Positions 9,588 to 14,098 of a DNA stretch of 64,000 nt are shown here, one piece after another. Origin of the DNA: Aggregicoccus sp. 17bor-14 (GTDB lineage: Bacteria > Myxococcota > Myxococcia > Myxococcales > Myxococcaceae); contig NZ_VJZZ01000003.1 of the NCBI RefSeq assembly GCF_009659535.1, forward strand, positions 62,001 to 126,000, written 5' to 3'. The notes under the pieces were generated by a model. That model had not been told where the DNA came from, searched no databases, and was given only the letters and a program-made list of their open reading frames with translations. The translations under genes and the position numbers were made by a program. The stretch's first letter is position 1, and each line of letters starts with the position of its first letter.

Positions 9588-10604
9588 ATGAACTTCGACT
9601 TCTCCGGGGTGCTGCACGGCGTGCTGCTGGGCGCCGGCCTCTACCTCTTCCTGCGCTGCGTGGTGGGCGGCTTCTTCACGGTGGACCAGAACGAGCGCGC
9701 GGTGAAGACCGCCTTCGGGCGCGCCGAGCGGCTGGGGCCCGGGCTCACCAACCGCACCGGCCCCCTGAGCGAGGGGCTCGCCCGCACGGACGAGGAGCGC
9801 TACGACTACCCGCGCCTGCGCGTGATCCCCCCCGGCGGCCCCTACTTCAAGTGGCCCTGGGAGAAGGTGCACAAGGTGAGCGTGGCCACCCGCACGCTCA
9901 ACATGGCGCAGGACCCGGAGAGCCCGCGCGCGAACCAGGGCGGCAAGGTGCTGGAGGCGGTCACCAAGGACCAGCTCAACACCGGCCTCACCGGGCAGAT
10001 CCGCTACCGCGTGAGCGAGAAGAACCTGTACGCGTTCCTCTTCGGCGTGAAGCAGCCCATCGTCCACACCATGGCCTACTTCGTGTCCATCCTGCGCGAG
10101 CGCATCGCCAACTTCGAGGCGCCCCCGCACTCGCCGGACGAGCAGCGCGCGAGCCAGCCCGCCGAGGCCGCGGTGGTGAGCGGCGTCTCCATCAACGACC
10201 TGCGCAAGAACATGCGCGACCTCAACGAGCACATGGACCGCGAGTGCAAGGGCAGCGAGGCGCGCTACGGCATCGTGCTGGACGCGAGCCTCATCACCAG
10301 CATCGACCCGCCCAACGAGGTGGAGAGCGCGCTCGCCGCCATCAACACGGCGCACAACCACGTGAGCAGCGAGGTGAGCCTCGCGCAGGCCAGCGCGGAC
10401 CAGAAGATCGTCCAGTCGCGGCGCGCGGTGGAGATCGAGACCCTGCGCGCGCAGACGGAGGTCGAGCCGCTGGTGGCGCTCTCCAGCGAGCTCGCGCTGC
10501 TCAAGCGCAGCGGGCCCGCGGCGCTCGCCGGCTACGTGCGCAACATTCGTCTGGGGCTCTACTCGAAGGCGCAGCAGGTGGTGCTGGGGGTGAAGAATGG
10601 CTGA
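9588..10604 (+). CDS. SPFH/band 7 domain membrane protein, first of a pair
   Basis: The product has 338 residues from ATG 9588. A short N-terminal transmembrane helix (about 5-25) is followed by an SPFH domain that begins VDQNERAVKTAFGRAE and continues through the strand-rich core. A helical coiled-coil-like region (about 255-310) has SEVSLAQASADQKIVQSRRAVEIETLRAQ, the Glu/Ala/Gln-rich helix typical of stomatin and flotillin relatives. Family members oligomerise on membranes and organise microdomains or regulate proteases. It overlaps the second SPFH gene by 8 bases. No ribosome site is obvious. No NfeD-type or protease partner gene lies next to it. Confidence 0.88.
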   Translation: MNFDFSGVLHGVLLGAGLYLFLRCVVGGFFTVDQNERAVKTAFGRAERLGPGLTNRTGPLSEGLARTDEERYDYPRLRVIPPGGPYFKWPWEKVHKVSVATRTLNMAQDPESPRANQGGKVLEAVTKDQLNTGLTGQIRYRVSEKNLYAFLFGVKQPIVHTMAYFVSILRERIANFEAPPHSPDEQRASQPAEAAVVSGVSINDLRKNMRDLNEHMDRECKGSEARYGIVLDASLITSIDPPNEVESALAAINTAHNHVSSEVSLAQASADQKIVQSRRAVEIETLRAQTEVEPLVALSSELALLKRSGPAALAGYVRNIRLGLYSKAQQVVLGVKNG

Positions 10605-11517
10605 GACGCTCTTCGGGATGGTGCTGGGCTTCGTCGCCACCGCCATCGGGTTGCCGGTGTTCTTCACGCTGCTCAAAATGCTCGGCTTCTACACGGTGGT
10701 GGAGGAGCGCACCTGCCGCGTGTACGTGCTCTTCGGCAGCGTGGTGGCGGAGCTGCGCGAGCCGGGCCTCAACTTCCTCTGGCCCAAGCTGGGCTGGCGC
10801 GCGCTCATCGTGCACTGGGTGGGCCGCGTGCACGTGGTGGACCTGCGCCTGGACCAGCAGTACCTGCGCAGCCTCGCGGTCAACAGCGAGGAGGGCGCGC
10901 CCATGGGCATCGGGGTCTGGTACGAGATGTACGTCAGCGACCCGGTGCGCTTCCTCTTCGAGAACGCGGACCCACGCGGCAGCCTCGCGGCCAACGTGAG
11001 CAACGCCACGGTGCGCAGCCTCAGCAACATGAAGCTCTCGGACATGCTGGAGAGCCGGCACACCATGAGCCGCACCGTGCGCGCCGAGGTCAGCCCGCAG
11101 AGCCACGCCTGGGGCTACAAGCTGGGCAGCGTGTACATCCGCAAGGTGCACTTCCGCGACACGGAGATGATCCGGCAGATCGAGGAGAAGGTGGTGAACC
11201 GGCTGCGCCAGGTGACCAGCGCCATCCGCCAGGACGGCGCGAACCAGGTGAGCATCATCACCAGCACCGCGGACCGGCAGGCGGCGGTGGAGTTCGCCAA
11301 GGCGGCCGCCCTGCGCCCGCAGATCGTGGGCGCGGCGCTGCGGCGCATCGGGGAGGACCCCGAGGTGCTGAACGTGATGTTCGAGGTGCTCGAGCTGCAG
11401 CGGCTGATGGCGAGCAACGCCGCCGTGACGCTGGTGCCCCAGGAGCCCACGGGCGGCGGGCTCATCGGCCAGCTGCTCGCGGCGCGCGGGGTGCCCGAGC
11501 CGGTGAAGGGGCGCTAA
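10597..11517 (+). CDS. SPFH/band 7 domain membrane protein, second of a pair
   Basis: The product has 306 residues. The N-terminal helix (about 5-30) carries GMVLGFVATAIGLPVFF. The SPFH domain begins TVVEERTCRVYVLFGSVVAEL and includes VDLRLDQQYLRSLAVNS. It is shorter in the coiled-coil part than its upstream partner. Two unlike SPFH proteins in tandem suggest a hetero-oligomeric membrane ring, as with HflK and HflC, although the sequences are not close to those. The stop codon TAA abuts the left end of the IS91-type element, so the final A is also the first base of the inverted repeat. Confidence 0.88.
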   Translation: MAETLFGMVLGFVATAIGLPVFFTLLKMLGFYTVVEERTCRVYVLFGSVVAELREPGLNFLWPKLGWRALIVHWVGRVHVVDLRLDQQYLRSLAVNSEEGAPMGIGVWYEMYVSDPVRFLFENADPRGSLAANVSNATVRSLSNMKLSDMLESRHTMSRTVRAEVSPQSHAWGYKLGSVYIRKVHFRDTEMIRQIEEKVVNRLRQVTSAIRQDGANQVSIITSTADRQAAVEFAKAAALRPQIVGAALRRIGEDPEVLNVMFEVLELQRLMASNAAVTLVPQEPTGGGLIGQLLAARGVPEPVKGR

Positions 11518-11565
11518 GCCCCCGGACAAAGTTTGTGTCCACCCCCAGGACGGACTCGCTGCGGG
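11517..11565 (+). repeat. Left inverted end of the IS91-type element
   Basis: It starts AGCCCCCGGACA and contains the hairpin GGACAAA/TTTGTGTCC and the block GGACTCGCTGCGGG at 11552-11565. It mirrors 13302-13349 on the opposite strand. Because it follows the SPFH stop directly, the hairpin may also end transcription. Confidence 0.7.
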
Positions 11566-11813
11566 TGGACGGGGCAGAGCAGGAGCGGCTGCGAGGCATC
11601 GGCCACTCCTCGGGGGCATAGGACAAACAGCCCGTGTTTCTCGCGCAGCGGCCCGTCGCGCGCGTGTCCGTGGAGCCCTGCCCTCCGCCGAAGTCCCCGC
11701 CTCGCGGCCACCGCACGGGCGTCCTCGGCCAAGCCGCAGGCGCACCTCGGGACTCGAGCGCCCCCGTTGCGCCCGGCCAGCCCACCTGCACTCCACCGCG
11801 TCTGCGCGCGGCC

Positions 11814-13224
11814 CTACTCCCACCCCGGCGGTCCCTGCGCGGCCGCCAGCGGCGGCACCCCCGTCGCCTCGCCCACGTGAGCGAGGATGGCCCGGACGAC
11901 GGGTGGGTCCGCCAGGTACGACAGCACCCGGCGCTTGCCCCCGCAGCGGGTGCAGAGGAAGACGTCCAGGGCGAAGGTGCGCTGCAGCAGCCCCGCCCAG
12001 TCCAAGCGCGGAGCGCGCTCCCGCCGGGCGGCCTCCACCCGCGGGGCATGGACTGTCGGCGCAGTGAGCGCGGATGCTTCGGATAAGGGTACCGGGGTGA
12101 CGCCCCTGCGCAGCTTCGACCCCGGTGCGAAGACGCCGTGGAAGCGCACCAGGTTGCTGCGGGGCGGCGGCACCAGGGCCGCGAGCTTGCGTAGGAGCTC
12201 GAGCCCGGTGAAGTGCAGGTGCGTGCGCCCGCCCGGCATTGCCCGCTTCATCCGGTAGGCAATTCGCCCATCTGCAAGGCGCTCGAAGCGCTCCAGGGCC
12301 AGCGGCCCCCCGGGCGCCGTAGCGGCAGAGACGCTCCAGGCCCTCTCTGTCATGCGAGTGCAGGTGCGTGTTGGCGTGGAGACTGAAGCCTTCCTGGAAG
12401 GAGCAGCGCGGCTGCTGACGGGGCGGAGCGCGCACGTCCAAGCCCAGCAGCGCCAGCTGCCCGCGCAAGCTGTGGGCCCGGTAGCCCTCGAGCGCATCGT
12501 CCTCGGCTTCTCGTTCCAGCACCCCACGCGCGGCGAGGAGCGCCAGCACCCGGCGGCGCACCTGCGCGAGCAGTCGCTCGAGCTCCTCCTGCGAGGGCGC
12601 TGGCAACGGGACGAAGGCCGCCTCAGGCGAGAAGACCCCGTCCGGCAGCAGCGCGTGAAAGTGGGGCGTCAGCTGCAGCGCGCTGCCGAAGCGCTGCACG
12701 AAGGTGACGGCGCCCGTCTCCCTTGCGCGCACGCCCCGGCGCCGTGCGCGCCGGCGCTGCAGCGCGAAGACGGCGCGCAGGAAGAGTGCGAGCACCTCCG
12801 AGAGAAGCCGCGCGTCGCGCGCGAGCGCCAAGCGGACTGCGAAGGGAAAGGACAGCGTCCACTGCCGCCACGGCACGTGGGGTAGCACGCGCTCCACCAG
12901 GTGCGCCGCCGTCCCGTGCGCCCGCTTCGCGTTGCACGAGGGGCATACGCCGCGCCCCTTGCAACTGAAGGCCACGAGGAGCTCATCGTGACACGTGTCA
13001 CAGCGCACGCGTGCGAAGCCGTTCGCCAGCTGACCGCAATCGAGATAGCGCGAGAAGTCGCGCGTCACGTAGCGCGGCAGGCCCCGGCCGACCGCGTCCG
13101 CCTCGGCCACGAGCGTGGCCAGGTTCTCCCGCACCGCGGCGTACAGCGGCGTGCCCTCCGGCTGCCTGCGCCGGTAGATGCGTGCGCCCCCCTCGCACGG
13201 TCTTGCTGCCCCCGCCTCGCCCAT
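11814..13224 (-). pseudogene. IS91-family HUH transposase, frameshifted
   Basis: The N-terminal part has a Cys4-type zinc-binding domain (CDTCHDE ... CPSCNAKRAHG) and then the HUH signature QLTPHFHALLPDGVF. The frame from 13224 breaks near 12306-12311, where a run of six G on the coding strand appears to be one base too long. Moving by one base continues as GPLALERFERLADGRIAYRMKR, which matches the expected family continuation after LERLCRYGAR, and runs to a stop at 11814. The single-base change may be a true inactivating mutation or a read error in a homopolymer. Rolling-circle transposases of this family cut one strand with a tyrosine. Confidence 0.8.
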
Positions 13225-13301
13225 TCCGCTCCAGCCCCGAGCAGGACACTACGGGAGGCGGCCGACAGTGCACCTGGGCGCCCCCCCGCGGCGCCGCCCT
13301 C

Positions 13302-13349
13302 CCCGCAGCGAGTCCATGGGAGGGGGGACAATCCCTCTGTCCGGGGGCT
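13302..13349 (-). repeat. Right inverted end of the IS91-type element
   Basis: Read on the minus strand it begins AGCCCCCGGACA, has a hairpin between GGACA and TGTCC, and then GGACTCGCTGCGGG (13302-13315). It pairs with the left end. Its outermost base is the last base of the TGA stop of the neighbouring MBL-fold gene. Confidence 0.7.
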
Positions 13350-14098
13350 CAGGCGCGCAGGGCCGGCCCGCACATCGAGTCCGCGAGCGCCTGCAAGAGC
13401 GCGCCGCCCTCCCCCGCCCACGCGCTGCCGTGCATGCACGCGAGCGTGCGCGGGTCCACCCGGGCGAGCCGCGCGAGCTGTCCCCGCGCCGTGTCCGAGT
13501 GGCTGAAGTAGTCCAGCGCGCCGCGAAAGGCCTCGCTGGGCCCCAGGATGTCGCCCTCGGTGAGCGGCGGGCACGCGGCGCCCCCGGGCTGGGTGAAGAG
13601 GTCTCCGCACAGGAGCGTGCGGGTGCTCGCCTCGAAGAGGTAGCCGCACTCCCAGCCGTGCGGCAGGTGCGGGGTGTCCAGCCAGGTCACGCTGTGGCGC
13701 CCCAGCGACAGGGTCTCGCCGTCCGCGAGCGCGCGCGGCGGCCGGTCCGCCATGTCCTCCAGGGAGGTGAGCGCCGCGACGCGCGAGCACACTGGCTGCG
13801 CCTGGGGCGCCACCGTGAGCAGCGCGTTGAGCGCTCCGCACTCGTCCGCCTCCACGTGGCTGACGCCCAGCCAGCGCAGGCGCTCGAGCGGGAGCACGCT
13901 CGCGATGGCGTCGCGCACCAGCGGGAAGAAGCGCCGGGGGCCGGTGTGGAAGAGCAGCGGCTCGTCGTCCACCACCAGGTACTGGTTGAAGCTGAAGCCC
14001 CCGGGCACCACCGAGGGCGGCAGGGGCGTGCTGATGCGGAAGATGCCGTCCGCCACCTCGTCCACCCGCGTGCCCATCTCCACGTTCACGACGCCCAT
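13349..14098 (-). CDS. MBL-fold protein of the flavodiiron/ODP type
   Basis: The product has 249 residues in the metallo-beta-lactamase fold, with metal-ligand motifs in the diiron order. HVEADE is at 81-86, His144 and His147 lie in DTPHLPHGW, Asp166 in LCGDLF, and MHGSAW is near the C-terminus. In flavodiiron and oxygen-binding diiron proteins the first motif is normally HxExDH; here the last position is Glu86, as in some two-domain-lacking relatives. No flavodoxin domain follows, so oxygen binding or sensing is more likely than flavin-dependent reduction. The gene ends against the right end of the IS91-type element. Confidence 0.8.
   Translation of the reverse strand: MGVVNVEMGTRVDEVADGIFRISTPLPPSVVPGGFSFNQYLVVDDEPLLFHTGPRRFFPLVRDAIASVLPLERLRWLGVSHVEADECGALNALLTVAPQAQPVCSRVAALTSLEDMADRPPRALADGETLSLGRHSVTWLDTPHLPHGWECGYLFEASTRTLLCGDLFTQPGGAACPPLTEGDILGPSEAFRGALDYFSHSDTARGQLARLARVDPRTLACMHGSAWAGEGGALLQALADSMCGPALRA

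Follow-up and report, generated by a model that had tools for sequence, protein, structure and literature searches.

IS91 and ISCR elements have ori and ter ends that are unlike one another, and they do not carry long inverted repeats. A full IS630-type element has one end on the N-terminal side of its transposase (N-type) and one on the C-terminal side (C-type), and duplication of a TA target within CTAG is the signature of this family. The target preference of IS630 for TA within CTAG goes back to Tenzen and Ohtsubo (1991), as cited in PMC2170065. Here, we describe a locus in Aggregicoccus sp. 17bor-14 that combines features of both families. In the window (the whole stretch of 64,000 nucleotides that was analyzed), an IS91-type transposase gene lies between long inverted ends, an arrangement that an earlier note had interpreted as either a new subgroup of IS91 or a composite ending. 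By far the best explanation, in our assessment, is that an IS91/ISCR-like element is nested in a short IS630-derived, MITE-like element (~165 bp), itself placed where a CTAG coincides with a stop codon, between two convergent genes. The locus consists of two ordinary insertion sequences, one nested in the other, and does not represent a new kind of IS91 element; the sole unusual detail of the nesting is that both outer ends are N-type.

Inverted ends and their IS630-type relatives

The inverted ends start exactly at position 11517 and stop exactly at position 13349. Their outer bases are identical at 12 of 12 positions (AGCCCCCGGACA) and their inner bases at 14 of 14 (GGACTCGCTGCGGG), within an inverted match of ~48 bp that includes small gaps; the left end reads AGCCCCCGGACAAAGTTTGTGTCCACCCCCAGGACGGACTCGCTGCGGG at 11517, and the gapped inverted copy closes at 13349. 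The local alignment of the two ends scored 42, compared with maxima of 34 to 36 for single-base shuffles. The pair is therefore not a chance match, and the inverted ends of about 48 bases described in the earlier note are real. The accompanying statement that each end folds on itself is weak. A GGACA-N7-TGTCC palindrome is present in both ends (it is part of the minimum-energy fold of the left end and absent from that of the right), but the folding of the two ends did not exceed that of shuffled DNA (z = 0.14 and 0.55).

Four contig tips of the host genome (C1, C10, C22, and C27) match the left inverted end at 89% identity over its first 97 bp. Past this match, all four tips enter an open frame, MDSLRVDRAERERLRSIGHSADVDAAERDR, which is the N-terminus of an IS630-type transposase and is 67% identical to the start of such a transposase in G034, a Myxococcaceae genome. 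Three other tips (C8, C9, and C12) carry the counterpart end, AGCGCCCGGACA..., joined to ELPERSFSTLDELLAAVRRA..., the C-terminus of an IS630-type transposase. End sequence unaccompanied by an IS91 transposase was thus found on seven IS630-type tips, four with this end and three with the counterpart. Exact tip matches in the host genome numbered seven, comprising the left end of the window and six of the IS630 contig tips; among near matches, the seventh IS630 tip and the right end of the window belong to the group, and the others were at approximately the control level. The seven tips suggest that the host genome harbors IS630-type copies, and contig breaks at these places are what a repeated element would produce. 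Most other contig tips of this genome form a few repeated groups (e.g., ...ATCTCGCGCAGTCCAACTAG and ...GACAGGTTTAAAGGGGTGC), which look like the ends of several other multicopy elements.

Complete relatives were present as nine copies across two Myxococcaceae genomes, three in G034 (1064 bp, with the same 12-bp tips as the window) and six in G002 (1061 bp, with related tips). They encode an HTH and DDE_3 transposase with an A7 run at the frame change, the catalytic half of which scored 112.5 bits with the NCBIfam model transpos_IS630, above the cut-off of 100. All nine are placed CTA-element-TAG, that is, in a CTAG target with TA duplicated. These copies (L146-L154, 1061-1064 bp) are nearly identical (99.5-100%) and look recently active. 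G034 also contains a truncated IS630-type copy (L051, 5465-5985), which is the closest relative of the left end of the window and is followed by an apparent IS3-type frame.

The outer ends of the window match those of the element encoding the HTH and DDE_3 transposase, and the tips AGCCCCCGGACA...TGTCCGGGGGCT are common to the window and the 1064-bp element. The left remnant (11517-11614, plus strand) is an N-type end composed of the terminal repeat and the start of the IS630-type transposase frame, and it is 77% identical to G034. The right remnant (13284-13349, minus strand) comprises an inverted N-type end, which is the 48-bp match, and 18 unassigned bp on its inner side; the end scored 57 against the N-type tip (shuffle maximum, 27) and 20, which is chance level, against the C-type tip. 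The remnants of 98 bp and ~66 bp together account for ~165 bp. Since all that is left of the transposase is 98 bp from its N-terminal side, with no intact gene, the outer element is an IS630 derivative and not a full IS630 element. It would be a short, nonautonomous, MITE-like element, and such an origin may explain the doubled N-type end. The outer element resembles the IS630 family and its MITE-like derivatives in its tips and in the TA at its left flank, consistent with placement in a CTAG; it differs in having no transposase beyond the 98-bp start, two N-type ends, CA at its right flank, and an IS91-like element inside. A tip search of the host genome found no second element with two N-type ends, and the exact end pattern had no match in the species-genome collection.

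An IS91/ISCR-like element between the ends

The sequence between the remnants (11615-13283, minus strand) is an IS91/ISCR-like element. The earlier report of an IS91-type transposase in this interval was confirmed by the detection of a zinc-binding domain (Zn_Tnp_IS91, 63.1 bits) and the HUH domain Y2_Tnp (50.9 bits). The gene (11814-13224, minus strand) is a pseudogene with a frameshift near 12310, the Pfam hits falling in two frames and the tblastn matches in frames -3 and -1. It scores below the curated IS91 and ISCR cut-offs of NCBIfam, with ISCR_clade_Ia as its best partial match. Three other copies in the same genome share homology with the IS91 body that stops at 11615-11616, and the flanks beyond this point are unrelated; this is the ori side, with its GCATAGGA tip. 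Rolling-circle transposition of IS91 and ISCR elements takes place next to a fixed tetranucleotide; no common tetranucleotide was obvious at the three ori flanks in the host genome. The ter boundary was placed approximately, near 13283, where sequence conservation among the relatives tapers off. The two inner boundaries, with the ter side placed approximately, are unlike one another, as in IS91 and ISCR elements. The inner element departs from that family in its frameshifted transposase and subthreshold NCBIfam scores, and the long inverted ends of the window are not part of it. Three more IS91-like remnants lie within about 10 kb on contig C6 of the host genome (G000; L021, 6400-7850, 9250-9290, and 15900-16060); one has an internal deletion, and they form a cluster of decayed copies.

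We searched for either inverted end at 73 IS91-like transposase loci (315 kb), of which 29 represent the same bacterial family and 44 are taken from genomes of named species, the two sets overlapping in part. None of the 73 loci carried an end. The best matches spanned 20 to 26 bp with E values of 0.01 or worse; the same queries matched the IS630 tips with E values down to 6e-32. Long inverted repeats in IS91 elements were also sought in the literature, with no relevant result. These results bear directly on whether the locus represents a new IS91 subgroup that uses the 48-bp inverted repeats as its own ends and is mobilized by the HUH transposase. The distances between the ends and the IS91-type transposase that they enclose are plausible, but the ends occur with an IS630-type transposase in the absence of IS91, they are missing from all 73 loci, and an ori boundary belonging to the IS91 body itself lies within them. 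We consider this possibility extremely improbable, and the attribution of the inverted ends to the IS91 element is not sustained. The earlier note had itself named occurrence of the repeat without the transposase as the observation that would speak against it, and the further copies, on IS630-type tips lacking an IS91 transposase, are of exactly this kind. Its other suggestion, a composite ending, pointed in the right direction, in that an IS91-like element is nested between the ends of another IS family.

Target site and convergent host genes

The outer element is preceded by CTA, with the target TA at 11515-11516, as in the nine complete relatives. At 13350-13351, where the duplicate TA is expected, the sequence is CA (right flank, CAG), which would be accounted for by a TA to CA change. 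With these flanks, no direct target duplication of 4 or 5 bp spans the whole unit. The left host gene (10597-11517, plus strand) encodes a protein of 306 aa that is SPFH-like by inspection; its relatives are 63-79% identical across almost the full length, and the last base of its stop codon, TAA, is also the first base of the outer element. The convergent right host gene (13349-14098, minus strand) encodes a protein of 249 aa that is metallo-beta-lactamase-like by inspection; its relatives align to residues 239-242, and its stop codon TGA overlaps the last base of the element. Both outer boundaries therefore coincide with stop codons of convergent genes, which fits a single insertion into a CTAG that the two genes would have shared. 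CTAG occurs 17 times in the window, about nine times more rarely than the approximately 153 occurrences expected from base composition. The neighboring genes were not adjacent in the other genomes compared as a source of an empty site. At the junctions of the complete relatives, the flanking frames are long at some and short at many, and landing on stop codons was not evident as a general rule.

The flanks also bear on a second alternative, in which the right end is the remnant of an independent IS630-type insertion in opposite orientation, with a deletion between the two insertions, and a MITE-like element never existed. Two N-type ends that have diverged from one another, together with a right flank lacking TA, are compatible with such a history. 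It requires two insertions plus a deletion, however, and both outer boundaries meet convergent stop codons, as from one CTAG insertion. We regard this history as unlikely, though worth serious consideration.

The nested reading, against which stand the CA at the right flank and the two N-type ends, an arrangement seen once, would involve the following events. A DDE transposase would have mobilized a MITE-like derivative of the IS630/Tc1-mariner type, which entered by cut-and-paste at the TA of the CTAG that closed both convergent genes. The IS91/ISCR-like HUH element, with its own ori and ter ends and a transposase that is now frameshifted, would have come to lie inside it. On the right, TA would have changed to CA, converting TAA to TGA and preserving the stop codon.

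A variant of this sequence of events is that the MITE-like ends and their IS91-like cargo came to the locus as one element, with an IS630-type transposase acting in trans. The 12-bp tips are kept at the outer ends, and the contig tips point to IS630-type copies in the genome; a single copy of the unit was found, however, and the order of insertion cannot be read from one copy. Arrival as a unit appears improbable, and it is very doubtful that IS91-like cargo is moved as a unit by a MITE-like element whose two IS630 ends are both N-terminal, with the IS630-type transposase in trans.

The nested reading brings out an IS630 group in Myxococcaceae in which every complete copy sits in CTAG, a target that would here have placed the outer insertion at a stop codon. 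It also removes a false lead for the biology of IS91, as the apparent long inverted repeats arise from nesting.
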